DNA of 39,148 nt, from the NCBI GenBank assembly GCA_017524165.1, contig JAFWUH010000082.1:1-39148 (forward strand), given 5' to 3'. Below are positions 2,005-31,048 of this stretch, one piece after another. Under the pieces are notes generated by a model that worked only from the letters and a program-made list of their open reading frames with translations, ran no database searches and was not told where the DNA came from. Position 1 is the first letter of the stretch, and every line of letters starts with the position of its first letter. A program made the position numbers and the translations under genes. This DNA is from Clostridia bacterium. GTDB taxonomy: Bacteria; Bacillota; Clostridia; Oscillospirales; Acutalibacteraceae.

Positions 2005-2037
2005 GAAAAACGGCCGAGTCCTGAGACTCTGCCGTTC
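2005..2037 (-). terminator. Intrinsic terminator of the DUF4956/VTC operon
   Basis: On the minus strand AACGGC and GAGTC pair with GACTC and GCCGTT around a TCAG loop, with one mismatch in the stem. The stem is followed by TTTTTC and lies about 20 bp beyond the stop of the DUF4956 gene. Confidence 0.8.
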
Positions 2038-2057
2038 TGCGTATGATGACCTCGATA

Positions 2058-2732
2058 TTACAACTGATTCTGTGTTTCTGTATACGGAAGAAGTGCAATT
2101 TCAAGGTTTCCGTTTTTGGTGCGGAGTTCATCTATAAACGCTTTTTCTTCCGCCGGATTTTTCAGTTGAACCTTAAAGGAAAGTCGAAACATACTACCCA
2201 TTCCGGTTGTTTTGACGCCTGCATTTTCATATTTTTTCAAATAATGAGCAAAAATATCGTCAAAAGTTCCATTATATTCCAGCGATTCCGGAATTGTGAT
2301 CCGAAGCAGTTGATCCGCCGCCATGCTTTTATGTTCAAACAGGGAGACGAGACTGAGCAGAAGAAACAACACCGAAAGCCCGAGGAGAATCACAACGCCG
2401 TAGCCGATATAACCCATACCAAAGGCGATACCGGAACCCATCGCCACCAAAATTGCGGCGATTTCGTCGGCACTGCCTTGTGCCGAGCGGAAGCGAATCA
2501 AACTGAACGCACCGCCGATGGCAACACCGGCGCCGATATTACCGTTCACAAAGGTGATAACTGCGGCGACGATAAATGGGATCAAGGCTGTAACGATAAA
2601 AAACCGTTTGGTTGAGCGGATGCGAAAGCTCATGATCCAGGAATACAAAAACCCTGTTACAAGCGAAACCCCTGCCATGATAAAGAACTGCGACGGGGTA
2701 ACTACGGAAGAATAAATAGAATCAAACATCAT
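2058..2732 (-). CDS. DUF4956 integral membrane protein
   Basis: This 224-residue protein has an N-terminal membrane region of about four helices (roughly residues 15-35, 43-62, 67-85 and 95-130) and a soluble C-terminal domain of about 90 residues. The conserved stretch GGAFSLIRFRSAQGSADEIA and the Gly-rich segment after it are the hallmark of the DUF4956 family, whose function is unknown. The C-terminal domain looks like a small ferredoxin-fold or ACT-like region, but this is inference. AAAGGAG lies 5 nt before the first ATG. The gene is last in a five-gene operon, 14 bp after the VTC polymerase gene. DUF4956 proteins are recurrently found next to VTC-domain proteins in Clostridia, so the two probably form a membrane complex. 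The substrate is not known. Confidence 0.85.
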   Translation of the reverse strand: MMFDSIYSSVVTPSQFFIMAGVSLVTGFLYSWIMSFRIRSTKRFFIVTALIPFIVAAVITFVNGNIGAGVAIGGAFSLIRFRSAQGSADEIAAILVAMGSGIAFGMGYIGYGVVILLGLSVLFLLLSLVSLFEHKSMAADQLLRITIPESLEYNGTFDDIFAHYLKKYENAGVKTTGMGSMFRLSFKVQLKNPAEEKAFIDELRTKNGNLEIALLPYTETQNQL

Positions 2733-2746
2733 GAAAACTCCTTTGA

Positions 2747-3466
2747 TTAGATAATTTGTGCCTTGATCAGTTGTTGTCTGTAAGCTTCGCCGTATTTTGA
2801 AAAACTTGCCTTTGCAATTTTCCCTATTGAAAGAATTTCAGCCAGCCATAACGGCATCGCCTGCTGAACCTTAACTTCCAGTATCGTCCATCCCGGATCC
2901 AGAAGCGAGACACCGTCCATAGATTTTGTCAGCGTTAAGTCTTTTGTGCGATAGCGGGGATTTTCGTCAATTGTAAGGCGAAGATCGCCATCCGGTTCAA
3001 AATATGCGGTGCGGTCATATATGATAAGGCACGCGGGCACAAGCGTTTTATAATAATCCCGAAATGTTTTAATTTCGTTATTGATCTGACCTCCGGCGCA
3101 TATATCGCCCTCTCCTGAAAAGAATTTATGAACGAGCGGGATCGTGGTTTCTACCCGGCGCTTATATACAATTCCATACGCCTTTCGTTTGAGTTCCAAA
3201 AAGACCGGTGATTCCGTGGTTGCCAATCCGTAGGAACGAAGACGGATTTTTTCTTTGAACAGCGGCTTTTCGACGCTGGTGCGAATCAGCCGGTAGGTCG
3301 GCGTGTCATAGTACAATGAAGCAATGGAAGTTTTACCGTATTGATCGACCTGCATACGACCTTTGAGTCGTTCGCGGAGAAAATCGGTCTGTTCAGCGTT
3401 CAGCAGATATTTCAGCTCATAACGCTTCATTACAGTTATTGCCAAAAGTGCCACCCCCGCCGTCAA
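2747..3466 (-). CDS. VTC-domain protein, probable polyphosphate polymerase
   Basis: This single VTC domain (CYTH/triphosphate tunnel fold) uses ATP to make polyphosphate in characterised eukaryotic homologues. Tunnel-lining charged motifs are visible: RYELKYLL at the N-terminus, KEKIRLRSYG, VFLELKRKAYGIVYKRR, IIYDRTAYF, LRLTID and ILEVKV. The size of about 230 residues fits bacterial stand-alone VTC proteins, and no SPX domain or membrane helix is present. Two starts are possible. A TTG at 3466 overlaps the stop of the kinase gene (TTGA), which suggests translational coupling. An ATG at 3430 begins directly at the conserved MKRYELKY. Neither has a convincing ribosome binding site, so the first 12 residues are uncertain. 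The DUF4956 gene follows after 14 bp. The product would need the membrane partner for any export, which is inference. Confidence 0.85.
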   Translation of the reverse strand: MTAGVALLAITVMKRYELKYLLNAEQTDFLRERLKGRMQVDQYGKTSIASLYYDTPTYRLIRTSVEKPLFKEKIRLRSYGLATTESPVFLELKRKAYGIVYKRRVETTIPLVHKFFSGEGDICAGGQINNEIKTFRDYYKTLVPACLIIYDRTAYFEPDGDLRLTIDENPRYRTKDLTLTKSMDGVSLLDPGWTILEVKVQQAMPLWLAEILSIGKIAKASFSKYGEAYRQQLIKAQII

Positions 3467-4683
3467 AGTGTAATGCGCAATGTAAATATCCCGTTAGAAA
3501 CTGCCGCCGTTGCGCGTCCGCTGTGCGACTTAACGATTTCTTTTACATAAGATAGTCCAAGCCCTGCGCTGTCTTCTGACGCATTTTCCAGTTTGGTGAA
3601 ACGGTCAAAGATCTGATAGACAGACCCGTCGGTCAAATCTGTATCATTTTGGGTTTCCAATATGATATAACCGTTTTCTTGTTTTAGACGAAAAGAAACT
3701 TTAGTCAAGGAATATTTCAACGCATTTTCAATGAGTTCCCCGATCAATTTGTTGATTGTTTCCGGATCGGCGGAAAGTGTGATGTTCGGCGTGATATCCG
3801 TCGTCAGCGCCAGTCCGCGTGAAGTAAAACTCTCTGCACGACTGTCAAGTGCGGCGCACAGGTATTCCGAGACAGGGATTTCGATCCTTTCTGTGTCGCA
3901 GTCATCCAATATACCTATTGTTTCGAGCTTATCGACCAGCTCGTTTAATTTGCTGATTTGACGGCGGGTAGAACGGGTTTCGTCATCGGGACCGTATTTT
4001 CGTTCCGCGAGTTCGGTGTTTCCGCTGATCACCGTAAGCGGAAGACGAAATTCCTTATTGGCGCTTTTGATAAAGTTTTTCTGCTTTCTGTCCGCCTCTT
4101 CAATGGGCGCATAAATGATCCTGCCGATACCGAGCAAGACAAACCAACCGATCACCAAGCAAAGCGCCTCTCCAACTACAGAGATAATCAAAATCCGGAA
4201 AGACGGAAGCAGTTCACGCCCCTGATCAATCACCGTCACATAGGTGATATCGCCTTTTTTATAAACGCGATAGCGGTAGGTGCCTCTCGTCCAGCCGGTC
4301 TTTTCCTTCCAAAGTGCAGACGCCCATTCCTGCGCCTCGTCTTCCGTTACTGCCGAAATATTCAAGGCTACCGTTTCGACCTTGCTTCCCTTTTCGGCAA
4401 AAGAAATCGTAAAATAGCGAAGCGATGCGTTCATTTCCGGGGATTCAGGACCCATCGGTCCCATCCTGAAGTCTTTATTTTTTTGTCCCGGAGGCATCCG
4501 ATCCGGCATTTTTTCGCCCACATTAAAGTCTCCCTGGCGATCCGCGAGCATCTGCGTAATTTCATCGGCATCACCCGCTGCCATGGTAAAGTTAATACTG
4601 TTAATTACCGTAAGCAAAACGGTTAAAAGGACAAAGATCACGAAAATCGCGTATAATCTGAATTTCTTTTCGGCTTTATTCAT
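3463..4683 (-). CDS. Histidine-kinase homologue lacking the phospho-acceptor His (pseudo-kinase)
   Basis: This 406-residue protein has two membrane helices (about 10-33 and 162-188). Between them is an extracytoplasmic region of about 125 residues containing a Met/Pro/Gly-rich stretch. A HisKA/HATPase core follows. The H-box, normally SHELxTPL, reads SANKEFRLPLTV, so the phospho-acceptor position is Lys210 (AAG codon, bases 4056-4054). The N-box (ELIENALKYSL), F-box (IFDRFTKLE) and G2 box (AGLGLSYVKEI) remain. The DxGxG G1 box is not recognisable, but the two active kinases nearby also lack a clear one. The protein therefore may bind ATP but cannot autophosphorylate in the usual way. It probably works as a sensor scaffold or an allosteric partner of another kinase. 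The start ATG overlaps the end of the partner regulator gene by 8 bp. Confidence 0.9.
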   Translation of the reverse strand: MNKAEKKFRLYAIFVIFVLLTVLLTVINSINFTMAAGDADEITQMLADRQGDFNVGEKMPDRMPPGQKNKDFRMGPMGPESPEMNASLRYFTISFAEKGSKVETVALNISAVTEDEAQEWASALWKEKTGWTRGTYRYRVYKKGDITYVTVIDQGRELLPSFRILIISVVGEALCLVIGWFVLLGIGRIIYAPIEEADRKQKNFIKSANKEFRLPLTVISGNTELAERKYGPDDETRSTRRQISKLNELVDKLETIGILDDCDTERIEIPVSEYLCAALDSRAESFTSRGLALTTDITPNITLSADPETINKLIGELIENALKYSLTKVSFRLKQENGYIILETQNDTDLTDGSVYQIFDRFTKLENASEDSAGLGLSYVKEIVKSHSGRATAAVSNGIFTLRITL

Positions 4684-5272
4684 TTTCGGTCACCATTTCA
4701 AATCCTTTCTGTGATTTATACTGAATTCTTGTCTTCAAGCCGGTCTTTGCCAATTTGATGTTCAGCGCACTGATCGACGCGCCGTAATCTGTCGTAACGG
4801 TTTCACCGTTGGAAAGAGCCCGCAGAACATAGATCTCTCCGGCGGTCAAGCGGAGACCGCCGGTCATTTGGTATTTCGGTACATCCACTTCAATTGTACC
4901 GATTTGAAGGTGTTCATCTGATAAAACATTTTTCAGGATATTGCTGATCTCAGCGCTGATTTTTTCAGGCGTAAAAGGATAGGATAAATGTGCATTCGGC
5001 AAGGGAGTCTTTGTCAATTCGTGCGCGCTGATCGGTCTATCTGTGAGGATCATCACCGGAATCCCCTTGTTCTGAATCCGCGTGACCAGCTTTTCATGAT
5101 CCATGCGCGGGATGTTTTTGTCCAGGATTGCAATGTCAAACGGTTCGGTTGCCAAAAGAGACGCCACCTGTGTTCCGTCAAATGCCGTAACAACTTCCGT
5201 AAGATCATCTTGAAGAATTTTACTGTAGCACTCAAGCAGATCCCTGTCCGGTGCTGCAAAAAGTATTCTCAT
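4676..5272 (-). CDS. Degenerate OmpR-like response regulator (pseudo-receiver)
   Basis: This 198-residue protein has an N-terminal receiver fold and a shortened C-terminal winged-helix-like region. The phosphorylatable Asp51 (AILDKNIPRMD) and Thr77 are kept. The acidic pair that binds magnesium is replaced by Ala-Pro (ILFAAPD instead of ILxVDDD), and the conserved Lys of the KPF motif is Tyr98 (LSYPF). The effector domain is only about 75 residues against the usual 95-100. LTAGEIYVLRAL aligns with the start and ISALNIKL with the recognition helix, but the helix between them is missing. It is therefore unlikely to act as a standard phospho-switched activator. A TTG lies one codon upstream. The ATG at 5272 is preferred because AAAGGAG lies 9 nt before it. 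It sits 21 bp after the lipoprotein gene and overlaps the pseudo-kinase gene. Confidence 0.85.
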   Translation of the reverse strand: MRILFAAPDRDLLECYSKILQDDLTEVVTAFDGTQVASLLATEPFDIAILDKNIPRMDHEKLVTRIQNKGIPVMILTDRPISAHELTKTPLPNAHLSYPFTPEKISAEISNILKNVLSDEHLQIGTIEVDVPKYQMTGGLRLTAGEIYVLRALSNGETVTTDYGASISALNIKLAKTGLKTRIQYKSQKGFEMVTENE

Positions 5273-5296
5273 CAATCGTTTCTCCTTTGAGAAAAA

Positions 5297-6961
5297 TTAA
5301 GCGGTTACCGAAACATCGCTGTAACAGGATGTACCGCCGTACGCGTTGGCGTTGTTAAAGGTATAGGAAGTACCGTTGATTTGAACGGTATGGCTTCCCG
5401 AAGCGTGCAACGACAGCGAATAGGACTTTACATTGCCGCCGGTGCCGACCCTTCCGTATCCCAAGACAATCAATGTGCCTCCTGACACGCTGATCTGACC
5501 GTCCGCGTCTATCGCCGCCGCCATCTGACTGCGCGGGCCTCTTGTGATAACGACACCGCCGGTTTGCGTGTAGCTTCCGTTGCTGTCAATACCGTCGGTA
5601 TCGCCATTGGGCGAGACCGTAACATCAAGATAACCGCCGGTGACATTGACTGTCGGGGTCGAATTGCCTTTGCAGGCGTTTACGCCGTCATCGTTTGCCG
5701 ACACATACGCTTTACCGCCGGACACATTTATGACATTTGCTTCCAGTCCCTCATAAGCGCTGTCGATCGTTACGGTGCCCCCGGAAATATTCAACACTTG
5801 ATCCGCATGGATGCCGTCCGCGCCGGAGACTGTCTGTTGACCGCCCCAACCGCCGGGTCCCTTCCGACCGCCTGCCGTTTTGTTTTGGGGCGCGTAAACG
5901 CTCATGGTGACCGTGCCGCCGGAAATATTGACCGTCCCTTTGCCTTGGGTGCCGTCCTCCAAAGCGGTGCCGTAGTCGGCATGAAGACCGTCATCATAAC
6001 TTTGAATGGTTATACTGCCGTTTTGAATATTCAACTCATTCTGTACCTTAACGCCCTTATACGAGGAAGTCGAAGCATTCGACGCTGTATAGCCGCTGTA
6101 TGATCCCGTATAAAGAACTATGGTTGGCGCCGTACCGTCTTCCCCTGTTGTCATCTCAAAGTTGTGCGCCGCCTGAAAAGCGTCGCCTGCGGCATAAACG
6201 GTGACTGCACCGCCTGAAATCGTAATATCTCCTCTGGTGACTCCGTTTTTGTTTACATCGGTATTTTGGGTTTTGACGCCGTCTCCGTTGGTGGAAATTG
6301 CAACAACGGTGCCGCTTTCCACCGTTACGGAATCATTACCCTTCAGTGCGTTATTGTAAGCGGAAGTTTTTAACGAAAGATTCTGTACCGTCAAATCTTT
6401 TGTCGTATGGATCCCGTTGTTGTATGCCGCGTTCACTACCAAGGTGCCGCTGCCTTTGATCTTCAGGTCACAAGTTGCATAGATCGCGCCTTCGCCCTGA
6501 TTTGCGTCATCAGCCGTTTTCGTATTCCGTGTATCATTGATAACATTTTCTGTCCCTTTTTTGGCAGAAATATCAACCTTTCCCGCCGAAAGGACTTTGA
6601 TCGGCGAATCACTTCCGTAAGTAACGGTCGCGCCTGAAAGCTCTATCGTCACTTCGTCGTTTTCGCCGGCTTCAACCAGTACCTGTTTGGTGAGAAGTCC
6701 CGACAAGGTATAGGTGCCGGCAGAAGTGATTTTGTAAACATCGCCGGTATTGCTGAAGGTACCGTCTTCCGAAGTTAGTGAAAATGTATCTGTTGTTTCC
6801 TTGGCGGTGACGCTTTGATCCGTAACCGCTTCCGCGGAAGCAGATACAGACGGATTTGGGGATGTCCCGGATCGGTCGGATTCGGTTTTATCGGCTGTTC
6901 CGCAAGCCGTGAGCGCCACGGCAAGGATCAGCGTAAGGGTGATTGCAAGTATCTTTTTCAT
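5297..6961 (-). CDS. Cthe_2159-like (DUF4353) beta-helix surface lipoprotein, carbohydrate-binding type
   Basis: This 554-residue protein begins with a lipoprotein signal peptide (MKKILAITLTLILAVALTAC, lipidated Cys20) and a Ser/Thr-rich linker to about residue 55. The rest is a repetitive beta-helix with many SGG and GDG turns, for example GDITISGGAVTVYAAGDAF, NISGGTVTIDSAYEGLEAN and VSANDDGVNACKG. This is the pattern of the Cthe_2159 family (PF14262, carbohydrate-binding domain-containing protein), whose founder binds cellulose and acidic sugars with calcium. A Gly/Trp-rich insertion (GGRKGPGGWGGQQ) lies near residue 365. AAAGGAG precedes the ATG. It is the first gene of the operon and lies behind an operator-like region. 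Family members are often encoded with VTC and DUF4956 proteins, sometimes with CotH-type spore coat kinases, but no CotH is present here. An outer-surface ligand-binding role is inference. Confidence 0.85.
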   Translation of the reverse strand: MKKILAITLTLILAVALTACGTADKTESDRSGTSPNPSVSASAEAVTDQSVTAKETTDTFSLTSEDGTFSNTGDVYKITSAGTYTLSGLLTKQVLVEAGENDEVTIELSGATVTYGSDSPIKVLSAGKVDISAKKGTENVINDTRNTKTADDANQGEGAIYATCDLKIKGSGTLVVNAAYNNGIHTTKDLTVQNLSLKTSAYNNALKGNDSVTVESGTVVAISTNGDGVKTQNTDVNKNGVTRGDITISGGAVTVYAAGDAFQAAHNFEMTTGEDGTAPTIVLYTGSYSGYTASNASTSSYKGVKVQNELNIQNGSITIQSYDDGLHADYGTALEDGTQGKGTVNISGGTVTMSVYAPQNKTAGGRKGPGGWGGQQTVSGADGIHADQVLNISGGTVTIDSAYEGLEANVINVSGGKAYVSANDDGVNACKGNSTPTVNVTGGYLDVTVSPNGDTDGIDSNGSYTQTGGVVITRGPRSQMAAAIDADGQISVSGGTLIVLGYGRVGTGGNVKSYSLSLHASGSHTVQINGTSYTFNNANAYGGTSCYSDVSVTA

Positions 6962-7000
6962 AGCTGATATCTCCTTTTTCTGTCATACTCTTAACAACAA

Positions 7001-7047
7001 CAATCCTCATCTGTTGTTGATGTTTGTATCGTAACAGATGAGGATTG
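7001..7047. repeat. 15-bp perfect inverted repeat in the lipoprotein operon promoter
   Basis: CAATCCTCATCTGTT at 7001-7015 and its exact reverse complement AACAGATGAGGATTG at 7033-7047 flank a 17-bp spacer. The right arm overlaps the proximal half of the direct-repeat operator at 7043-7061. If transcription starts near 7020, as the candidate -10 implies, only one arm would be transcribed. It would then act as a DNA operator rather than an RNA hairpin. The start site is inference. Confidence 0.75.
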
Positions 7048-7061
7048 AAAAAAGATTGAAT
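7028..7061 (-). promoter_or_regulatory. Candidate OmpR-type operator and promoter of the lipoprotein-VTC operon
   Basis: GATTGAA occurs twice with an 11-bp period at 7043-7049 and 7054-7060 (plus strand). This is the spacing expected for tandem OmpR-family binding. A -10-like TACGAT (minus strand, 7033-7028) lies 9 bp from the proximal half-site, and there is no good -35, as in activator-dependent promoters. The 19-bp block is repeated with one substitution at 11746-11764. Confidence 0.55.
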
Positions 7062-7192
7062 TTTTTAAATTTTTTGAAAAAGTCAATGAAAATGCCAAAC
7101 TTTACAGCAAGCACCTGTCTGAACGACTTCAAGATACCTTCTGCATCCTTTGTTTTGCTTTTCAGATTGTCATCCGAACCGATTGCTTCCCT

Positions 7193-8422
7193 TTAAAAAT
7201 CAACAGTAAAACAAATCGTGTCGCCGGCATAAGAAACCTTCATTTTCCCTTTCATGCGTTCCACGATTTCCTTTGCCATCGAAAGTCCTATGCCGAAGCC
7301 GCTTTTCTCTGAATTATGGGATTCATCTTTCCGGTAAAAACGCTCAAAAAACTTTGCGGTATCGGTATTTTTGCCCTCCGCATAGGTATTTGAAACCGAA
7401 ATATGCGCACCTTTGGCGCGAGAAGTCTTTTCAAGACAAACAACAATCTTACCGTTGTCATCACAGTATTTCACCGCGTTATCGACCAGTACCGATAAGA
7501 CATGTCCCATGCTTCGTTGATCACACTTAAGGTGTACATCCGGAGTTATTTCGGTTGACAGCGTTTTCCCGGCGCTTTCCGCCACGCTTCTGAACGATTC
7601 CGCTGTTTCGGCAACAATTTCAGATATATTGAGCTCTGTTAAATTTTCTTCTTTGATCTCATCCGCCCGGGTCAGAACGACCAAATCTTCGATCAGCGTC
7701 TGCAATCGCGTGATTTGTCTGCGAGTACTGTCCGTCCACTTGGTTTTACCGCTTATGATTTCTGTCATTTCGGTATTTGCAGAAATCACCGCAAGCGGCG
7801 TTTTCAGTTCGTGGCTTGCATTGGTAACAAACCGCTTTTGTCTCTCATCGTTTTCAATAAACGGTCTTATCAGCTTCTTGGAAAAACGAAGAATGACAAC
7901 AATATAAAGAATCAGTACCAAAAACCACAATCCCGCCATATACATCATGGTCAGGTGCTGCATGGCATAACGACTGGTGCTGTCCAACAATACCAAAGCA
8001 ACATCGCCATTTTCAGCTGTCTGCTTCCGAAAGCGGAATATCCGTTCTCCCTCGATATCAATGCGACCGCTGTCTTTATCGCTTCTATATGCCTGCGCAA
8101 TGACTGAATCAATTTTATCCCGCGGCATTGCAATATGCATCACAGAAACATCCACACCGTTATTGCTTTTGACAGCCGTTAAGAACCGTGTTTCATAAGC
8201 AGACTCTTCCTTTAGTGCCAGAAATCTTTCCTGCCCTGCATCAAACTCAAAGCGTTCCGGCAGATCACCGTTATTATCGAGTATTATTTTCATCAGCACA
8301 TCGGTCTGCCGACCGATCACGCCGGAGGTGATGCCGTACACGATACCGGTAACTGTCATGACAACCAAAAAAAGTACCAATGCAGATCCCCATATAAATT
8401 GGCGTTGTAGCTTTTTAAACAT
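7193..8422 (-). CDS. Sensor histidine kinase (canonical)
   Basis: This 409-residue membrane kinase has helices at about 10-32 and 158-180 enclosing an extracytoplasmic sensor of about 125 residues. HisKA follows with His204 in ASHELKTPLAV, then HATPase with the N-box LVDNAVKYC, the F-box FFERFYRKDE and the G2 box GFGIGLSMAKEI. The ATG at 8422 was chosen because GGAGG lies 6 nt upstream and it overlaps the stop of the partner regulator gene. A longer frame starting 18 codons earlier has no such site. It is the last gene of the upstream five-gene operon and the obvious partner of the regulator at 8415-9089. No clear terminator follows in the 230 bp before the lipoprotein gene, so readthrough is possible. 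Confidence 0.92.
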   Translation of the reverse strand: MFKKLQRQFIWGSALVLFLVVMTVTGIVYGITSGVIGRQTDVLMKIILDNNGDLPERFEFDAGQERFLALKEESAYETRFLTAVKSNNGVDVSVMHIAMPRDKIDSVIAQAYRSDKDSGRIDIEGERIFRFRKQTAENGDVALVLLDSTSRYAMQHLTMMYMAGLWFLVLILYIVVILRFSKKLIRPFIENDERQKRFVTNASHELKTPLAVISANTEMTEIISGKTKWTDSTRRQITRLQTLIEDLVVLTRADEIKEENLTELNISEIVAETAESFRSVAESAGKTLSTEITPDVHLKCDQRSMGHVLSVLVDNAVKYCDDNGKIVVCLEKTSRAKGAHISVSNTYAEGKNTDTAKFFERFYRKDESHNSEKSGFGIGLSMAKEIVERMKGKMKVSYAGDTICFTVDF

Positions 8423-9089
8423 CTTTAACCTCCGTAATGCGGTAACCGCTTGCATCGGATATCTGAATTGCCGCATTGGCTTTGACTGACTGCAGTTTTG
8501 CGTTCAGAAAAGAGATATACATCCAAACAATATCCGCCGATGCATCTTCCCCTGTCCATACCTCCGAAAGCAGTTCAGATACTGTCATATCTTTATCGGT
8601 ATTGGAAAGCAGACAGCAAAGCAGTCGCACTTCCTTTTGTGACAAAGCAATCGAATTATGCGCCCGAAGTTCGGACGATTCTGTATCAAGCTCCAGATTA
8701 CCGAAGGTAAAGGTTCGCGTTTTATAATCCCGTTTCCTACGGTAAAGTGCCCGCAGTCTTGCGTTGAGCTCTTCCATGGCAAACGGTTTTGTCAAATAAT
8801 CGTCCGCACCGGCATCCAAACCTTCTACACGGTCTGAAACTTCCGCTTTTGCCGTCAAAAATATTGCCGGGACCGTATTGCCGGTTTCACGGATTTTTCG
8901 CATGGCGGCAATCCCGTCCATAACCGGCATCATGATATCCATAACGACGGCATCATAGGCGTCTCGCGCAAGTTTCTCAACCGCCGCCGCTCCGTTTGGT
9001 ACCGCGTCGACCAGATAGCCTTGAAATTCAAGGTAGTCCTGAACGACCTCTCTCAGATCATTTTCATCTTCCGCAAGTAAAACCTTCAT
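8415..9089 (-). CDS. OmpR-family response regulator
   Basis: This 224-residue regulator has a complete receiver domain: the acidic residues of LLAEDEN, phospho-acceptor Asp51 in VVMDIMMPVMDG, Thr79, and Lys101 in YLTKPF. A full-length winged-helix domain occupies about 125-220, with LSQKEVRLLCCLL, a VSELLSEVW helix, WMYISFLNAKL as recognition helix, and a GYRI wing. The ATG at 9089 follows GGAGG by 5 nt. A 24-codon upstream extension lies inside the alarmone synthetase gene and was rejected. It overlaps the end of that gene by 26 bp and the kinase gene by 8 bp, so the three are probably translated together. It most likely activates transcription when phosphorylated by the kinase encoded next. 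Targets are unknown. Confidence 0.93.
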   Translation of the reverse strand: MKVLLAEDENDLREVVQDYLEFQGYLVDAVPNGAAAVEKLARDAYDAVVMDIMMPVMDGIAAMRKIRETGNTVPAIFLTAKAEVSDRVEGLDAGADDYLTKPFAMEELNARLRALYRRKRDYKTRTFTFGNLELDTESSELRAHNSIALSQKEVRLLCCLLSNTDKDMTVSELLSEVWTGEDASADIVWMYISFLNAKLQSVKANAAIQISDASGYRITEVKDV

Positions 9090-9708
9090 AAACGCCTCCG
9101 CTTTGTCCCCTGATGATCTTCCGCAAGGTCTGCATAGATACATCGCAAGCTGCCAATTCATTGGCGCAGCGATGCAATTCTTGGACGATCAAATCTTGAT
9201 TTTTAATATTCCTTTTGTATTTTAACTCATGTTCAAGCGCCGCCCAGGTATCCATCGCAATGGTGCGCAGTTGAACCTCTATAAAAAAGTGACCGGGGGT
9301 ATTTCCGTCCACATCCGGCGCGTCGGTTATCCTATCCAAAACCATATGATAACTCCGATACCCGTTTGGTTTGGCATTTTGAATATAGTCTTTTTCCCGA
9401 ACGACGGTACAACCTGGAATAGATTTAATTAACGCGATATTCTCATAAATATCATCAATGAACAGGCAGACAATACGAAGTCCGATCGCATCCGTAACGC
9501 TTCGCAAAGCGTGGTATGTTGTTGCTTCCAGTCCTTTTTTTTCCAATTTTTCGAGCATGCTTTCCGGACTTTTGATACGACAGCAAAGATGTTCAAACAG
9601 TTTTTCTCCGGTTTCTTCTTCGTGCTTTCGGCTGTTTGCCTCTATTGTTTTTGCGAGATCGTTCATGATCCCGGTCATGGCATTGTAATATTTACCGTAA
9701 ATACTCAT
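9064..9708 (-). CDS. Small alarmone synthetase, RelQ/RelP-like GTP pyrophosphokinase
   Basis: This 214-residue synthetase-only RelA/SpoT-domain protein transfers pyrophosphate from ATP to GDP or GTP to make (p)ppGpp. Conserved elements are present: R44-x-K46 in the ATP-binding segment (RIKSPESMLEKL), Asp73 in TDAIGLRIV, KPNGYRSYHMVL around 113-124 for guanosine stacking, and EVQLRTIAMDTWAALEH with Glu144 and His160. There is no HD hydrolase, TGS or ACT domain, so another enzyme must degrade the product. The size matches RelQ-type enzymes, which form tetramers in characterised cases. It sits between two two-component pairs, 27 bp after one kinase gene and overlapping the next regulator gene. 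This is an unusual context and ties alarmone production to the signalling operon. Confidence 0.92.
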   Translation of the reverse strand: MSIYGKYYNAMTGIMNDLAKTIEANSRKHEEETGEKLFEHLCCRIKSPESMLEKLEKKGLEATTYHALRSVTDAIGLRIVCLFIDDIYENIALIKSIPGCTVVREKDYIQNAKPNGYRSYHMVLDRITDAPDVDGNTPGHFFIEVQLRTIAMDTWAALEHELKYKRNIKNQDLIVQELHRCANELAACDVSMQTLRKIIRGQSGGVYEGFTCGR

Positions 9709-9735
9709 TTGATCTGCTTCCTCACAAAAGACTTT

Positions 9736-11025
9736 TTACTTCTCATTTTTCTTTTTCGGCAGCGAAACGGTAAATTGGACTCTGCCGTTATGAAATGCCG
9801 CATAGATCCGACCGTCGTGCGCTTCGGTCACCGCCTGCGCAATCGAGAGTCCAAGCCCGTAATGCGATTCCCCTGCGGTACGCGCCTCATCTGTGCGGTA
9901 GAAGCGGTCAAACAGATGCGTCAACTGTTCCTCACTTAACGCTTTAGCATCATTGGATACTTCGAGCACCGCGGCATGATGTTCACTGTAAAGAGACAGT
10001 CCGATGGTCTCCCCCGTTCCGTGCTCAAGCGCGTTGTCCAGCAGGATCGCAACCAGTTGACGAAGCTGATTCGGGTTACCTTCAACGGTCAACCCGTCTT
10101 CAATATCCGCCTTTATTTGTTTTCCCTTTTCAAAAGCAAGCGTTTCCAACGGCAGAACTTCCCCGCTGACCAGCTTGGAAAAATCAAGAGTTTCTTTCGG
10201 CATTTCTCCGTTCTCAGTCTTGGAGAGGAATAAAAGCTGTTTTACAAGTTCTGACATCCGTTCGTTTTCATAGTCAATGTTGTCCAGCCATTCGTTGTCC
10301 CCGATTTCGCGTCGAAGCAGTTCGCTGTTCGCCGAAATAACTGCAACTGGCGTTTTCAACTCGTGCCCGGCGTCGGAAACAAACCGTTTTTGGCGTTTAT
10401 CGTTTTCTTCCAGCGGGCGAACGATCCGGCGGGCAATAAATATGGAAATTACAAATAGCGCAACCGATGCCGACAAACCGATAATCAGCATCTGACGGAT
10501 CAGCGTTTCCTGATGACTGTCGTTGATCGTTCGGTCGATCATCGCGACCAGGGTGTATTCCTCCCGTTGCTCCACAAGATATGTCATATTTCCCGTCTTG
10601 CCGCTTTGCTTACCTTTTTTTAAAATAGCAGATGCCGTTTTCAGTAAAGAATCCGCACTTTGAAGTTCATTGTTACCATTGTTCACCTTGAGGACTTCTC
10701 CGTCTTGCGCGTATGCTACCGCGTAAAATGTCGAAAGCCGGAACGCCGGATCATCTTTCCCCGGTCTGTCCTCATGCAGTTCGCGCGGTTCATTCGCTTG
10801 TCCCGGTCTGAAATCGGGCGCTCCGTCGGGTCTCGTTTCCCGATCTTGAAGCAGCGGTTGTTCTTCCAGCGAAAACCTTTCAACATATGTACGCAACATT
10901 TCACGGCTCTCGCGATCCAATACAGCACGATTTGTAAGATATATTGTTGTTAAAGTAACCGTCATTAAAGCAAACAATGAAAAAACTACCGTAAAAACAA
11001 TTTTTCTTCTGGTTCTATGAAACAT
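9736..11025 (-). CDS. Sensor histidine kinase (canonical)
   Basis: This 429-residue membrane kinase has helices at about 9-31 and 178-198. The extracytoplasmic region of about 145 residues carries an Arg/Pro/Asp/Glu-rich stretch (DFRPGQANEPRELHEDRPG). It is organised like the sensor of the pseudo-kinase at 3463-4683, including a similar DFR-G-P element and a following Phe/Tyr-rich strand, so the two look paralogous. HisKA has His221 in AGHELKTPVAVI. HATPase has the N-box LLDNALEHG, the F-box LFDRFYRTDE and the G2 box YGLGLSIAQAV. GAGG lies 7 nt before the ATG, which overlaps the regulator gene by 11 bp. With that regulator it forms the first pair of the upstream operon and is the best candidate to control the shared operators. 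Confidence 0.93.
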   Translation of the reverse strand: MFHRTRRKIVFTVVFSLFALMTVTLTTIYLTNRAVLDRESREMLRTYVERFSLEEQPLLQDRETRPDGAPDFRPGQANEPRELHEDRPGKDDPAFRLSTFYAVAYAQDGEVLKVNNGNNELQSADSLLKTASAILKKGKQSGKTGNMTYLVEQREEYTLVAMIDRTINDSHQETLIRQMLIIGLSASVALFVISIFIARRIVRPLEENDKRQKRFVSDAGHELKTPVAVISANSELLRREIGDNEWLDNIDYENERMSELVKQLLFLSKTENGEMPKETLDFSKLVSGEVLPLETLAFEKGKQIKADIEDGLTVEGNPNQLRQLVAILLDNALEHGTGETIGLSLYSEHHAAVLEVSNDAKALSEEQLTHLFDRFYRTDEARTAGESHYGLGLSIAQAVTEAHDGRIYAAFHNGRVQFTVSLPKKKNEK

Positions 11026-11698
11026 CCCGGCACCTCAATTCATATCCTATTCCACGCAATGCTTTGATCTCGCATCCGGATTCTACAAATGCCAGCTTTT
11101 TCCGTACAAAAGACATATAAACTTCGACATTATTATATTCCGAATCACTGTCATAACCCCAAACCTTTAACGCGATCTGTTCACGGGTAAGGACTTGACC
11201 TCCATTGGCAATGAGATATTCCAAAATATGAAGCTCCTTTTCTCCGAGGCGAACGCTCTGTCCGTTTTTACATTTCAGCAGGGCGTTCTTCACATCGAGC
11301 GTCAAATCTTCAAACGAAAGGCTTCCGTCATTTGTCGGCAGATTACGGCGGCTGAGTGCTCGAAGTCTGGCAAGCAGTTCCTTTGTCATAAACGGTTTGG
11401 TTAAATAATCGTCTGCACCGCTGTCAAGCCCTTCGACCTTGTCATCCAACTCGCTCTTTGCAGTCAGCATCAAAATCGGCGTGCGGATCCCCCCGGCGCG
11501 CGCTTTTTTTGCCACTTGAAATCCGTTCATTCCCGGCATCATTACATCCAATACAATCAGATCATAAACTCCGCTTTCTATTTCATCAAGCGCGTCTTCG
11601 CCGTTATCTACGGAGGTGACCTCATACCCCTCCTGCCGCATGATTTCACATAGCGCCCGGTTCATTCTTTTTTCGTCTTCAGCAAGCAAAACCTTCAT
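11015..11698 (-). CDS. OmpR-family response regulator, first gene of the upstream operon
   Basis: This 227-residue regulator has a full receiver (LLAEDEK, Asp51 in IVLDVMMPGMNG, Thr79, Lys101 in YLTKPF). Its complete winged-helix domain includes LGEKELHILEYLI, LTREQIALKVWGYD, EVYMSFVRKKL and a GIGYELR wing. The ATG at 11698 lies 9 nt after GGAGG. The ATG three codons earlier directly abuts the GGAGG and is a poor start. Its promoter carries a direct-repeat operator nearly identical to that of the lipoprotein-VTC operon. The simplest reading is autoregulation plus activation of that operon. This is inference from site sharing, and the other regulator in the operon is an alternative. Confidence 0.93.
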   Translation of the reverse strand: MKVLLAEDEKRMNRALCEIMRQEGYEVTSVDNGEDALDEIESGVYDLIVLDVMMPGMNGFQVAKKARAGGIRTPILMLTAKSELDDKVEGLDSGADDYLTKPFMTKELLARLRALSRRNLPTNDGSLSFEDLTLDVKNALLKCKNGQSVRLGEKELHILEYLIANGGQVLTREQIALKVWGYDSDSEYNNVEVYMSFVRKKLAFVESGCEIKALRGIGYELRCRDVS

Positions 11699-11731
11699 TT
11701 CTATCATCCTCCGACTTTCCTTACAAACTAC

Positions 11732-11764
11732 ATTCTACACCTAAAGCTTGAAAAAAGATTGAAT
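11732..11764 (-). promoter_or_regulatory. Candidate operator and promoter of the regulator-alarmone operon
   Basis: GCTTGAA (11746-11752) and GATTGAA (11757-11763) repeat with an 11-bp period. A good -10, TAGAAT on the minus strand (11737-11732), lies 8 bp from the proximal half-site and about 34 bp before the start codon. There is no canonical -35, which suits an activator site. The 19-bp block differs at one base from 7043-7061. Confidence 0.6.
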
Positions 11765-11921: not shown

Positions 11922-12386
11922 TCACTGATACAGATGTTTGTTGTATCTTAAGGCATCTCCTCTTAAACAATGAGACGGTACTTCTTTTACATCTATTTGT
12001 ACCTTTTCTCTCGGTATCATCAATTCCGGATACCGTCGCTCTGTTTTTCTTGACGGTTTCTTCTTCCTTTGGGTTGTCCGTCCTATTCGCTTTGCAGCAT
12101 ATACCATACCACTAAAACTTCTAGTATAATGCCGTTTTATTAACTCGTCATAAACGCCGTCCCAACCGTATCTGGCGTAATACTTCTTAAACGCTTTCTT
12201 TATCTTTCGTTCTTCGGATTTTGTATGCCTATTGGGATTACTCTGCGGACGATGTGATCTTTCGCACAGTGATTGCCATGTTTCTCCATCATAGCGTAAG
12301 CACCGCCTTTTTACGCTTGAAAGACTCACTCCATATTGTCTGCTCGCTGCACTTTTTCCGTTTCTTAACACATATTCATTCAACAT
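11922..12386 (-). pseudogene. Truncated DDE transposase (integrase-core type)
   Basis: This 154-residue fragment contains an N-terminal helix-turn-helix (YVLRNGKSAASRQYGVSL, then SVKRRCLRYDG) and a linker with a YARYGWDGVYDEL segment. It also has the first strand of the catalytic core, EKVQIDVKEVPSHCLRG, including the first Asp of the DDE triad. The frame stops at HLYQ, just where intact relatives continue into the core, so about half the protein, with the second Asp and the Glu, is missing. It resembles IS481/IS3-like elements. The start may also be truncated, because stops lie in frame just upstream. A 27-bp sequence next to its 5' end recurs at 17048-17074. Confidence 0.75.
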
Positions 12387-17122: not shown

Positions 17123-18949
17123 TCAATACAAACCGAAAAGTCTTAAAAGCTTTTGCCAGAAATTGAGTTTTTCCTTCTTTTCGACCTGCACCTGATTTCT
17201 TTCAGGAGCAATTTCATTGGTCTGCATAACAAATTGCAAGGAAGTAATATTGGTATTATCGGATGAAACAAAGGAGACCGGCGTAGTATTCCCGGAAATT
17301 GCCTGTGCAATTTCCGCGCCGTTATTTGCCGCGGAGCCATCAGCGCTACCGCCGAGTGTGTTGACGCCCTGTTGAAGTTCATTGATACCGTCGGATAATT
17401 TTTGAGCACCGTCCTTTACTTCGCCGACTGATTTCGTATAGGTTTGAAGACCGGAAACAAAAACGCCGTAATCGTCCAACATCCCTTTGAGTCGGACAAT
17501 ACTGTCAACACCGTTGGCTACATTAGAAAGCGAGCCGGCAATTTCATTGGCAAATTCTTGGGATTTCAGGACTTTATCAATATAAGCGCTTTCAATCTGT
17601 TTCTTTTGTGAGGTTGACAATTGATTTACCGCACCGGCTTTGATTTGTGCTTTCTCGTCATCGGTCAACGAATTGACGGCGGCGTCCATCGCATCCGCCT
17701 TTTGCGACGGTGTCATGGCTGCAACCATGGTTTCAACAGTCCTTTGACCGAGGGCGCTGTTCACATAGCCTGCCGCCTGTTCTGCCGACATACCCAGCAG
17801 GCGAAGATTTTGCGTCAGCAATTGTGCGCAAACCTTTGTATAAACCATGTTGCTTTGAGAATTAAGATAAGTTCGGTAAACTTCATCCGCGATGGAGTCG
17901 ATATAACCGGCGTAAACTTCGTTGGCTTTTGCCGCGACTTCCTGTTTGACCTTGGCGACACCGGTATTATAGGCATTCTGATACGAACCGTTTTTATCCA
18001 GTGTGTTCAGCAAATCCCCCAGCACTTTGGCATAGGTCGAGGGGGTCAGTTTGATCGGCGACATGCCGTTCTTTTGCAGTTCGGCATTGATCTGTGAAGC
18101 GGCGGCGTCACACATACCGGCATAAGCGGTATTGGCACCGTTCACAAGGTCTTTATTTTTGGCAACGATGTCCGTTAACCCGCCCGTCAGGGCTTTGCTG
18201 CCGGCGTCGAGCGTGGAAATACCGCCCGTCAAGGAGGAAATTCCGGAAAGCAGTTCCTCGGCGATGCCTAAATTCATCCGAACACCGTTTACGGCAATCG
18301 GATTCATTTTAAAGTTTTTTACTTCGGTCGAGATGGAAAATTTTGCACCTTCGCCGGGTAAAATGGTATAGGTCAACTGTTTGTCGTTACCGACATTGAC
18401 AATCGTTGCGCCGTCGGCAACGATATTACTGCAGATGCCGGTATCCAGTGTTACCACGGTTTGTAATGCCTGATCTTCAAAGAAATTACCCGCGCATGCT
18501 TCGTTTTTGGTGATCTCGATCATGATGGCAAGCAGACCGCTTTTCCCGGCAAGTTTATCTGCCGGCGTTTCTTTCCCGTTCAGGTAATAACGGATAGCAA
18601 TGTTCCACGGAATAACAGTGCTGTCCAATTTCCCTTCGTAATAAAGCTTACCGGCTTTCGCGTCGATCGTAACGGTCGAGTCGTTATCGTAGTGGATTTC
18701 ATCGGTTGTGGTCATATTCCGCAACTTGGTATATTTCCCGTAATCAATGATTTTTCCGTCAGCATTTAAATCAAAAATATTGACCACATTGATTTCCTTG
18801 ACCGAACCGTCACCGTTTAAATTCACATATACTACTTCTTCTTTGGTCGTGTTTTCGGGTCGATCGGCACCGACACTCACCATACAGCCAACCCCGAGTA
18901 AGACCGCGGCCATGATAACCGCCATGATTTTATAAACGCGTTTCATCAT
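17123..18949 (-). CDS. YhgE/Pip-like secreted heptad-repeat protein, MMPL partner
   Basis: This 608-residue protein has an N-terminal signal or anchor (VYKIMAVIMAAVLLGVGCM). The middle beta-rich part is followed by the LxxG-type heptads characteristic of the YhgE/Pip family: ISSLTGGISTLDAGSKALTG near 240 and VKDGAQKLSDGINELQQGV near 525. A long helical, Ala/Gln-rich stretch lies between them, probably a coiled coil. It ends in an amphipathic NFWQKLLRLFGLY rather than the usual multi-helix membrane domain, so it is shorter than classical Pip proteins. The start ATG overlaps the stop of the MMPL gene (ATGA). This coupling implies a complex in which the protein forms an extracytoplasmic extension of the transporter. 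Its role in lipid or cell-wall export is inference. Confidence 0.75.
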   Translation of the reverse strand: MMKRVYKIMAVIMAAVLLGVGCMVSVGADRPENTTKEEVVYVNLNGDGSVKEINVVNIFDLNADGKIIDYGKYTKLRNMTTTDEIHYDNDSTVTIDAKAGKLYYEGKLDSTVIPWNIAIRYYLNGKETPADKLAGKSGLLAIMIEITKNEACAGNFFEDQALQTVVTLDTGICSNIVADGATIVNVGNDKQLTYTILPGEGAKFSISTEVKNFKMNPIAVNGVRMNLGIAEELLSGISSLTGGISTLDAGSKALTGGLTDIVAKNKDLVNGANTAYAGMCDAAASQINAELQKNGMSPIKLTPSTYAKVLGDLLNTLDKNGSYQNAYNTGVAKVKQEVAAKANEVYAGYIDSIADEVYRTYLNSQSNMVYTKVCAQLLTQNLRLLGMSAEQAAGYVNSALGQRTVETMVAAMTPSQKADAMDAAVNSLTDDEKAQIKAGAVNQLSTSQKKQIESAYIDKVLKSQEFANEIAGSLSNVANGVDSIVRLKGMLDDYGVFVSGLQTYTKSVGEVKDGAQKLSDGINELQQGVNTLGGSADGSAANNGAEIAQAISGNTTPVSFVSSDNTNITSLQFVMQTNEIAPERNQVQVEKKEKLNFWQKLLRLFGLY

Positions 18950-21003
18950 TTCACAGGATTCTCCTTTGCTTGTTTTTTGGGAATAACAATTCGGTCAAAA
19001 AGATATAACAGACCGGGACAGACGAACAGAACGATTATCAGCGAGAGCAAAGCACCGCGCCCGATAAACAATCCGAGTTGAGCAATGATCTGGTTGGAAG
19101 AGAACCAGCTTAACAACAGACCGACGATGGTCAACACACTTCCCGAGGTCATGATTGATACAAAAACATCGGAAACGGTTTTGATAACAGCGTCTTTTTT
19201 ATCCATAACCGTTCGGTTTTCGCGATAACGGTCGGTCAGCAAAATGGCGTAGTCAACAGTGGCTCCCAACTGAACCGAGCTGATAATCAAATATGCCAGG
19301 TAATAGACCGGCGAATCCATGAAGTACGGGATGGCAAGGTTCAGCCAAATGGCAGTTTCAATGGATAGTACCAAAATAATGGGTAATGACAGCGACCGCA
19401 TGGCAAACAGCAGTACCAGGAAGATTGCAAGCACGGCAATCGTATTTACCCGAACCATATCGCTTTCAATCGTTGTCTTTAAGTCGTATGTACCGACACC
19501 CTCTCCGGCAAGGTAGGCTTTGCCGGGATAGCAGTTGTCCGCAATCTGTCGAATTTGTTTCACCAAGGCAAAGGTTTCTTCTCCCTCGCTCGGAACCGAT
19601 ACCGACAGCACCATCCGACTGTAATTTTCTCCTTCCAGTTGAGAAAGAATACTTTTGCTCAGGTAGGCGGAAGGAATCTCGGCGCCGGCTGTATTGACAT
19701 AGGAAATGATGCCGGAAATCTGCGGCAGATTATCCAAATCGGAAACCAACGCCTTTTCCATAGCGGTATTCCCTTTCGGTACCAGCAACACATAGTTATC
19801 ATTTTGACCGAACACCGTTTCGATTTGCGCCATGTCATGTCCAACCTGTGAGTGCTCGTCAAAGATTTTAGAAGAGCCATAGAGATAACTGTTGGAATGT
19901 GCGCCCAACAAGGACGGAATCAACACAACGGCAAAAACTATGACGGCAGGAATGATGATTTTATGAACAAATTTGCCCAATCCCGTAAATTTCGGTAACA
20001 GAGGACGGTGTTCAAGCTTTTCAATCCATTTATAAGTGCAGAGGATCAGCGCCGGGACAAAAACAAATACCGTAATCAGGCTGATTGCAACGCCCTTTGC
20101 TAAAACGATACCTAAATCCGCTCCCAATTTAAACCGCATTAATACGAGCGCCAGAAAACCGATCACGGTAGTCAGTCCGCTCGACAGAATGGAAGAGGTG
20201 GATTTGCACAGAGCTTCCACCATAGCGTCCCGAACATTATCGTGATGCGTGCGACACTCTTTAAAACGGTGTAGGAGGAAGACCGAGTAATCTAAAGATA
20301 CCGCCAACTGCAAAACGCTTCCCGCCGCGTTGGTGATAAACGAAATTTCACCAAAGAAAGAGTTGGTGCCGTTATTGAGAAGAACCGCAACCCCCAATCC
20401 GAGCATCACGATGATGGCATCCATCCATGAAGTGCAGGTGATCATCAACACCACAAACACAAAAAGTACCGAAATCGCCGAAATATATATCATTTCGGTC
20501 AGGGTATTCTCGGTTGCCGCCGCAATAGATACGGCACTGCCGGACATGGCGTTATCTTTTCCGATGACTTTACGGATTTGCTTGACCGCATCCAAACGGT
20601 GAGATTCCTCTAAAGTGACCGAAAGCAACGCATTCCCGTCTTTGTAATAGGTTTCAACCGTATCGGTGTCCAGCGCAGACAGCGGAAGACGGATATCGAT
20701 GGCATCATCCAGCCATGTTACTGCTGTGACGCCCTCAATAGCGCTGATTTTTCCTTTAAGTTCCAATACCTGCGGAATGGTCACATCGGAAACCATGATT
20801 CGCGCATTGGGTATTCCGTCGGAAAATTCCTTTTGCATTACTTCCAGTGAAATGGTCGATGCCGTTCCGTCGGGCAGGTAGTTATTAATATCATAATTAA
20901 CGGATACGATCCGGCTGAGAAAAGCCGCAACCACACATAAAACGGCAAAAATAATTAAAATGGTTTTTTTATATTTCGTCAGACCGTAATAAAAACGCTC
21001 CAT
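18946..21003 (-). CDS. MMPL-family RND transporter
   Basis: This 685-residue protein shows the duplicated RND layout. The first membrane helix (about 12-32) is followed by an extracytoplasmic domain (about 33-165), then helices 2-6, a helix near 345 starting the second half, a second external domain (about 365-500) and five final helices. Family signatures are QLAVSLDYSVFLLHRFKE in the first half and QLGATVDYAILLTDRYRE in the second, each with the proton-relay Asp-Tyr in TM4 or its equivalent. MMPL proteins export lipids or lipid-like molecules in actinobacteria and Firmicutes. It is the first gene of a two-gene operon with the Pip-like partner and has a perfect consensus promoter. The substrate is not known. 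The neighbouring acyl-adenylating enzyme and SGNH hydrolase make a lipid plausible. Confidence 0.9.
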   Translation of the reverse strand: MERFYYGLTKYKKTILIIFAVLCVVAAFLSRIVSVNYDINNYLPDGTASTISLEVMQKEFSDGIPNARIMVSDVTIPQVLELKGKISAIEGVTAVTWLDDAIDIRLPLSALDTDTVETYYKDGNALLSVTLEESHRLDAVKQIRKVIGKDNAMSGSAVSIAAATENTLTEMIYISAISVLFVFVVLMITCTSWMDAIIVMLGLGVAVLLNNGTNSFFGEISFITNAAGSVLQLAVSLDYSVFLLHRFKECRTHHDNVRDAMVEALCKSTSSILSSGLTTVIGFLALVLMRFKLGADLGIVLAKGVAISLITVFVFVPALILCTYKWIEKLEHRPLLPKFTGLGKFVHKIIIPAVIVFAVVLIPSLLGAHSNSYLYGSSKIFDEHSQVGHDMAQIETVFGQNDNYVLLVPKGNTAMEKALVSDLDNLPQISGIISYVNTAGAEIPSAYLSKSILSQLEGENYSRMVLSVSVPSEGEETFALVKQIRQIADNCYPGKAYLAGEGVGTYDLKTTIESDMVRVNTIAVLAIFLVLLFAMRSLSLPIILVLSIETAIWLNLAIPYFMDSPVYYLAYLIISSVQLGATVDYAILLTDRYRENRTVMDKKDAVIKTVSDVFVSIMTSGSVLTIVGLLLSWFSSNQIIAQLGLFIGRGALLSLIIVLFVCPGLLYLFDRIVIPKKQAKENPVK

Positions 21004-29975: not shown

Positions 29976-29999
29976 TAATCCTTCACACCTATCTGATCC

Positions 30000-31040: not shown

Positions 31041-31048
31041 TTTTTCAC

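Follow-up and report, generated by a model that had tools for sequence, protein, structure and literature searches.

A conserved pseudo two-component pair adjoins a VTC-domain protein and a DUF4956 membrane protein in rumen Clostridia

Why should a sensor kinase and a receiver be retained beside an enzyme when both have lost the residues through which such proteins are phosphorylated? The question is raised by contig JAFWUH010000082.1 of a Clostridia bacterium (GCA_017524165.1), which is 39,148 nucleotides long and is referred to below as the window. Ten genes at 2058-11707, every one on the - strand, are arranged in the order RR1-HK1-SAS-RR2-HK2, a 231-bp gap, and then lipoprotein-RR3-HK3-VTC-DUF4956 (RR, response regulator; HK, histidine kinase; SAS, small alarmone synthetase). 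An earlier note on this DNA had described a ten-gene block with VTC, DUF4956, Cthe_2159, synthetase and signalling genes, and this description is borne out by the reading frames and by Pfam. It had also counted three two-component pairs. Two of these are genuine, as Pfam finds two full response regulators and two full kinases (RR1/HK1 and RR2/HK2), whereas the third, the degenerate HK3/RR3, is a pseudo-pair without phosphotransfer residues. What had been missed is that the pair adjoining VTC appears from its residues to be catalytically dead and is the conserved partner of VTC. The second gene group consists of the following features:

5297..6961, - strand: Cthe_2159-like beta-helix lipoprotein (PF14262 1.1e-63; solved relative 4peu 2e-29)
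4676..5272, - strand: RR3, pseudo-receiver with the lysine lost, the acidic pair replaced by a DRD motif and no recognisable winged helix (Pfam, alignments)
3463..4683, - strand: HK3, pseudo-histidine kinase with the histidine replaced by lysine and the ATP-site boxes retained (Pfam, alignments)
2747..3430, - strand: VTC-domain protein of 227 amino acids (PF09359 8.1e-41); start 3430 chosen, an upstream TTG at 3466 possible
2058..2732, - strand: DUF4956 membrane protein, remotely MgtC-like (PF16316 5.8e-9; hhalign)

HK3 and RR3 were aligned with their orthologues from 84 loci, namely the window, the 80 best of 246 VTC relatives and three further genomes with a VTC protein at least 70% identical, 166 weaker relatives lying outside the sample. 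Residue counts omit HK3 rows shorter than 350 amino acids and RR3 rows shorter than 100; near-identical pairs (e.g. L047/L048) were kept. The window HK3 reads ANKEFRLPL where the live kinases of the block read xxHELKTPL, and its HisKA match of 21.5 bits falls under the curated Pfam cut-off of 26.9. The phospho-acceptor histidine is missing from 79 of the 80 aligned HK3 sequences. The window has K at this position, and the replacements overall are K (28), N (18), S (10), R (9), Q (9), E (2) and M, A and T (1 each). The N-box asparagine, both F-box phenylalanines and both G2 glycines are present in 80/80. As an internal control, the live kinases of the same loci have H in all 29 readable H-box rows, 9 rows not being read. 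An apparent H-box K in L116 and L127 (the same loci as L004 and L019) and an apparent G in L133 were errors of a loose pattern, the true residue being H.

The window RR3 retains a receiver match (4.9e-8) and has no Trans_reg_C match in Pfam. It is without the adjacent acidic pair of receivers and without the lysine of the KPF motif. This lysine is lost in 76/76 RR3 sequences, the position being Y, L or F in 71 and never K, and the acidic pair is lost in 66 of the 67 rows covering that stretch. After strand 1 a new DRD motif is found, the R and D of which are retained in all 67 covering rows. Fewer than 45 residues follow the KPF position of the receiver in 20 of the 76 sequences. No winged helix is matched by Pfam in the window RR3, and 4 of 41 relatives match one only at E 0.11 or worse. 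Judged by these alignments, HK3 and RR3 are without the residues needed by normal phosphotransfer. Set against a canonical two-component pair, they lack the acceptor histidine and the acidic pair and lysine of the receiver; HK3 resembles a pseudo-histidine kinase in that the histidine is lost, the other boxes are kept and the gene is under selection.

The ratio of non-synonymous to synonymous substitution rates (dN/dS) is 0.07-0.24 for HK3 in 9 of 12 pairs, with 3 saturated, and 0.10-0.36 for RR3 in 9 of 11; for the live HK1 it is 0.07-0.17 in 5 of 7. By this measure the HK3 and RR3 genes are under purifying selection, and the same values rule them out as pseudogenes. In the 19 loci with both kinases the extracytoplasmic core of HK3 is more conserved than its ATP domain (0.83 versus 0.71), while HK1 shows the reverse trend (0.73 versus 0.76); the dimerisation regions score 0.85 in HK3 and 0.91 in HK1. 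In a quick tree HK3 forms a single clade (SH-aLRT 100). Because HK3 and RR3 have both lost their phosphorylation residues and yet are kept by selection, an enzyme switched by protein contact is suggested.

The enzyme in question is indicated by gene order. Of the 84 loci, 81 have HK3 as the gene immediately upstream of VTC, and 83 have DUF4956 immediately downstream. HK3 is absent from L051, L095 and L050, the last of which stops at a contig end. Gene calling placed a regulator immediately ahead of HK3 in 76 of the 81 loci that have it; among the remaining five, the contig runs out within 1.5 kb in four, and the HK3 frame is split in one. On the VTC+DUF4956 tree the presence of the HK3/RR3 pair needs four changes and is compatible with one gain and three losses; all trees were quick searches, and this one carries a long-branch warning. 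Since the 84 loci had been collected by VTC similarity, 391 genomes of the class were also searched with an HK3 profile. One match besides the window was obtained (E up to 1e-80), in another order of the same class, and here too the order is RR3-HK3-VTC-DUF4956, with HK3 reading EKEFKVPL and having no histidine. This search scored only four candidates per genome, and further HK3 copies may be missed. VTC and DUF4956 had been put forward as recurrent neighbours, and they are: among 99 genomes (that of the window included) VTC occurs in 49, DUF4956 in 50 and both in 48, leaving one genome with VTC alone and two with DUF4956 alone. Among 40 fetched loci of relatives, 24 have a Cthe_2159 gene next to VTC. 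The core unit, as defined by this gene order, is RR3-HK3-VTC-DUF4956, often accompanied by the Cthe_2159 lipoprotein.

A VTC protein lacking the tunnel residues for polymerase activity had been named in the earlier note as a ground for rejecting its model; the residues are present. A profile of the VTC family aligns to Vtc4 among solved structures, a single-sequence search of the same structures giving no match. In this alignment VTC R63, R65, E185 and K212 correspond to Vtc4 R264, R266, E426 and K458, and all four are invariant in 35 rows. R264, R266 and E426 are reported as residues changed to impair the yeast enzyme (PMC9911596), and K458 is called catalytic (PMC4641920). Polyphosphate polymerase activity is likely for VTC on this residue pattern. 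DUF4956 aligns with MgtC in hhalign (91.9%, E 6.8e-7, 187 columns), three control comparisons giving about 0.2%. The MgtC profile cut-off is not reached: 4 of 31 DUF4956 members match, with a best E of 0.013, and the DUF4956 of G071 scores 20.9 bits against a cut-off of 31.4. A DUF4956 profile search of solved structures returned nothing credible, and NCBIfam assigns no family to either the VTC or the DUF4956 protein. By its profile DUF4956 would be remote kin of MgtC only.

The first gene group and the promoter elements of both groups are as follows:

11748..11763, - strand: operator-like direct repeat TTCAATC-n4-TTCAA before RR1, with TAGAAT 10 nt on (pattern and promoter analysis)
11015..11707, - strand: RR1, live OmpR/PhoB-type response regulator (PF00072 3.4e-30, PF00486 4.7e-19)
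9736..11025, - strand: HK1, sensor histidine kinase with HELKTP intact (Pfam, H-box reading)
9064..9708, - strand: SAS, small alarmone synthetase of RelP/RelQ type (PF04607 7.3e-31; YwaC 2.8e-30)
8415..9089, - strand: RR2, live OmpR-type response regulator, start 9089 read from sequence (Pfam)
7193..8422, - strand: HK2, sensor histidine kinase with HELKTP intact, start 8422 read from sequence (Pfam)
7045..7060, - strand: the same operator-like repeat before the lipoprotein gene, with TACGAT 11 nt on (pattern and promoter analysis)
7001..7047, - strand: perfect 15-bp inverted repeat with a 17-nt centre, spanning the -10 box of the lipoprotein promoter (repeat search)

Neighbouring genes within each group overlap or nearly so (SAS/RR2 by 26 nt, RR2/HK2 by 8 nt, RR3/HK3 by 8 nt). 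The 16-mer TTCAATCTTTTTTCAA is identical before both groups; the window contains exactly these 2 matches where 0.12 are expected, and 1 of 100 shuffles reached 2. The 231-bp gap and the identical 16-mer before each group support a two-operon reading, with operon structure taken from the spacing of the genes.

Promoters were surveyed over the window and L031-L110 (1.10 Mb). The repeat TTCAA-n6-TTCAA is found at most 150 bp from the start of 18/22 RR1 genes and 22/26 upstream lipoprotein genes, where its overall rate predicts 0.004 per promoter; these 40 promoter sites make up most of the 57 in the 1.10 Mb. A TATAAT-like hexamer follows the repeat after 10 nt (21 sites) or 11 nt (15) at 36/36 sites with enough sequence, compared with 15% in shuffles. 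The stricter TTCAATC-n4-TTCAA has two sites in the 1.53-Mb genome of the window, both at these promoters. Over 12 genomes it has 31 sites; 22 share a contig with VTC and are near it, 9 lie elsewhere, and G014 has none. The reversed pattern has 0 sites over the 12. A general promoter scan of the region found 13, with 13.5 expected from shuffles, and no common operator-like repeat was found upstream of RR3 in 44 loci of L058-L110. The direct repeat thus has a period of 11 bp and occupies the -35 region, and the -10 box follows at a fixed distance. Promoters that an OmpR/PhoB-type regulator activates at -35 are laid out in this way, as in the case of PhoB.

Because the operator occurs only at these two promoters in the genome, one regulator likely drives both operons, and a two-site operator of such rarity marks a tiny regulon. 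RR1 is probably that regulator, a candidate by co-occurrence only. The one control over alarmone synthetase and VTC that had been suggested earlier is probable in this genome, the same conserved operator-like site standing before both groups. At the -10 box of the lipoprotein promoter the arms of the inverted repeat are at least 9 bp in 8 of 22 promoters examined. The arms (7001-7047) change together in several relatives, and so a second regulator may act at this promoter. A further operator-like site is seen in G135 (G135:C13:23429-23444, at about 14034 in L031), after SAS-RR2-HK2 and before another gene.

Taken together, we give a probability of roughly 0.4 to a reading in which two probably co-controlled operons are built around a membrane-linked VTC-type polymerase with its own dead sensor pair, HK3 and RR3 gating by contact. 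We infer RR1 as the activator, HK3 as an ATP-binding sensor, contact of RR3/HK3 with VTC or DUF4956, and polyphosphate as the product. RR1, phosphorylated by HK1, would activate both operons. HK3 would read an extracytoplasmic signal as its live paralogue HK1 does, bind ATP and pass a conformational signal via RR3 to VTC and DUF4956, and this signal would open or close the synthesis of polyphosphate or its passage at the membrane. The lipoprotein may act outside, in surface binding or signal presentation. In this lineage the RR1 operon would have taken up the alarmone synthetase and a further two-component pair, such that (p)ppGpp synthesis may rise with the same switch. If true, a conserved pair that is tied to one enzyme and has both kinase and receiver dead would illustrate cleanly, in nature, how two-component proteins can signal by conformation alone, and the pseudo-pair would offer a direct handle on what VTC and DUF4956 do.

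Several observations weigh against a contact gate of this kind. One HK3 among the 80, from L110 (5693-6892), has the acceptor histidine, followed by N instead of E or D, and the phospho-aspartate of RR3 is still D in 48 of 71. The pseudo-pair is dispensable, because VTC-DUF4956 stands without it in L051 and L095 (inside the clade), L171, L111 and L113. Elsewhere VTC-DUF4956 adjoins live two-component genes, which may be upstream, downstream or divergent, or none. Lastly, E5 of VTC is acidic where Vtc4 has T198, as we match the positions from the alignment, and an acid there is a feature of triphosphate tunnel metalloenzyme (TTM) phosphatases, which have an acidic patch; R3 and K187 of VTC are basic.

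The main rival to contact gating is that HK3 and RR3 are decoys of the live pair, since the input modules are related. HK3 would form mixed dimers with HK1, or RR3 would compete for HK1, and the effect would be to damp transcription of the operons with VTC left uncontacted. The input modules of HK1, HK2 and HK3 are related in hhalign (97.9-99.1), the shared module of HK1 and HK3 reaching 99.1; both kinases occur in one locus in close relatives, and the operator places rr3-hk3 under probable RR1 control. The conserved neighbour, however, is VTC and not HK1: L056-L110 retain RR3-HK3 beside VTC, mostly without a close RR1-HK1 in the fetched stretch, HK1 elsewhere not being sought. We regard the decoy explanation as unlikely, if the best placed of the alternatives.

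A second alternative concerns the enzyme itself, in that VTC may have another triphosphate-tunnel activity and not be a cellular polyphosphate polymerase, serving instead the assembly of a surface or coat polymer with the lipoprotein, or elsewhere CotH, as client. In 11 of 55 places where VTC occurs, CotH is no more than about 4 kb away (a comparison of two surveys), and pel loci have been described with CotH, a polyphosphate polymerase gene and DUF4956 alongside (PMC7112168). The acidic E5 points in the same direction. The invariance in 35 rows of the residues matching Vtc4 R264, R266, E426 and K458 argues against it. PPK1 was found in 0/37 same-genus genomes and 6/60 overall, so that the role of polymerase could fall to VTC, PPK2 being outside the search. 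On balance this alternative is rather improbable. CotH was not found in the genome of the window; across the relatives' loci, CotH and Cthe_2159 seem to alternate as the genes next to VTC-DUF4956.

The model of the earlier note, in which SAS and VTC constitute a single stress module for the joint production of (p)ppGpp and polyphosphate, fares worse still. SAS has PF04607 as its sole Pfam match, corresponding to the synthetase domain alone, with YwaC as nearest solved relative (2.8e-30). The module is favoured by the operator-like site common to both operons in the window and by linkage of a small synthetase to the system in five genomes and three arrangements. These are the window, three of the loci of the 80 best VTC relatives (L031-L033) and G014 (L152). 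L032 has the same content as G012:C74, and L112 is the contig of L032. In L031 (G135) the synthetase follows DUF4956, and in G014 it stands directly before the lipoprotein (L152); a second contig of G014 (L186) carries DUF4956 and, after it, a regulator and a live kinase. In G010 a small synthetase and VTC share a contig, about 11 kb apart. Against this, SAS is absent from 77/80 of the best VTC relatives' loci as far as their flanks reach and from 39/40 relatives' loci, the one with SAS being L112. Another 18 small-synthetase loci were fetched: L152 is the linked one, and the stretches of the other 17 contain neither a lipoprotein gene nor VTC nor HK3. The synthetase match in L057 proved to be a 777-amino-acid long RelA/SpoT homologue and was dropped from the count; the adjacent reading frame we take from its sequence to be recJ-like. 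Conservation across loci rules out SAS as a core component, and the claim that it is part of the system does not hold; by its distribution SAS is a lineage-specific minority add-on, and a joint stress module seems quite improbable. Finally, that HK3 and RR3 are what is left of a two-component pair in the course of decay is hardly credible, as the loss of the histidine and lysine and of most of the C-terminal part in 20/76 RR3 is set against dN/dS well under 1, invariant boxes, a new invariant motif and retention in many species and families.

The cassette also appears to have moved between families. Of 394 genomes of the order, 16 have a VTC of at least 70% identity; they belong to families f1, f10, f16, f17, f20 and f21. 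Tested genomes of f10, f16, f17, f20 and f21 have UvrC only 37-42% identical to that of the window (26478-28310), whereas their VTC is 71-89% and their DUF4956 76-93% identical. In two genomes of the window's own family UvrC is 52-53%, VTC 75-76% and DUF4956 72% identical. Lateral transfer is argued because the order of identity of VTC/DUF4956 and of UvrC is inverted between families. G075 (f16) is without HK3. A transposase-like fragment, read from its translation, lies at 11922-12386 just upstream of the RR1 operon and fits a mobile history. A more general form of the contact reading, which we hold only tentatively, would define a class of phosphorylation-free pairs: a dead kinase and a dead receiver would together act as an allosteric gate, dependent on ATP and on ligand, for a polyphosphate polymerase coupled to the membrane, and the four genes would have spread as a cassette from one bacterial family to another.

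Elsewhere in the window, three adjacent secreted-type proteins at 28428-32794 carry cadherin-like/cohesin-like, LRR_5 and dockerin, and SH3 and dockerin domains and are possibly cellulosome-like. At 17123-21003 a 608-amino-acid protein with no Pfam match directly precedes an MMPL transporter gene.

In the open-licence literature searched on VTC, DUF4956, polyphosphate polymerase, CotH and histidine kinase, nothing ties a kinase to VTC, and no description of the control of bacterial VTC-DUF4956 systems was found. Comparison is possible with several known systems, as far as the passages cited describe them. SAS resembles RelP/RelQ in consisting of the synthetase domain only and in retaining, by count on the YwaC alignment, the named ATP and Mg residues with one R to K change (PMC5794853); it differs in being embedded between two-component genes. 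The Gram-positive pel accessory genes cotH-PPP-DUF4956 similarly place a polyphosphate polymerase (PPP) family gene next to DUF4956 (PMC7112168), whereas here the neighbours are a lipoprotein and a pseudo two-component pair. MgtC (PF02308) shares the remote 187-column profile match with DUF4956, and in Salmonella this membrane protein is reported to bind the histidine kinase PhoR (PMC6658541), a precedent for a DUF4956-like membrane protein touching a histidine kinase; DUF4956 nevertheless lies under the Pfam MgtC cut-off, and Pfam separates the families. The eukaryotic VTC complex has the same tunnel-domain residues, whose change kills Vtc4, and a membrane part alongside (PMC9911596, PMC4641920), and its activity is switched by the sensory module SPX (PMC9911596). 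The window VTC is without SPX, DUF4956 replaces the membrane part, and the candidate switch is the pseudo-pair. A parallel to HK3 is DivL, a Caulobacter pseudo-histidine kinase in which the phospho-acceptor is likewise replaced and the other kinase boxes are retained, and which is said to work without kinase activity by binding a response regulator (PMC4211667). That regulator, DivK, is however a live receiver that is phosphorylated, and the protein on which DivL acts is a further kinase, whereas the receiver next to HK3, RR3, is dead and the fixed neighbours are VTC and DUF4956.

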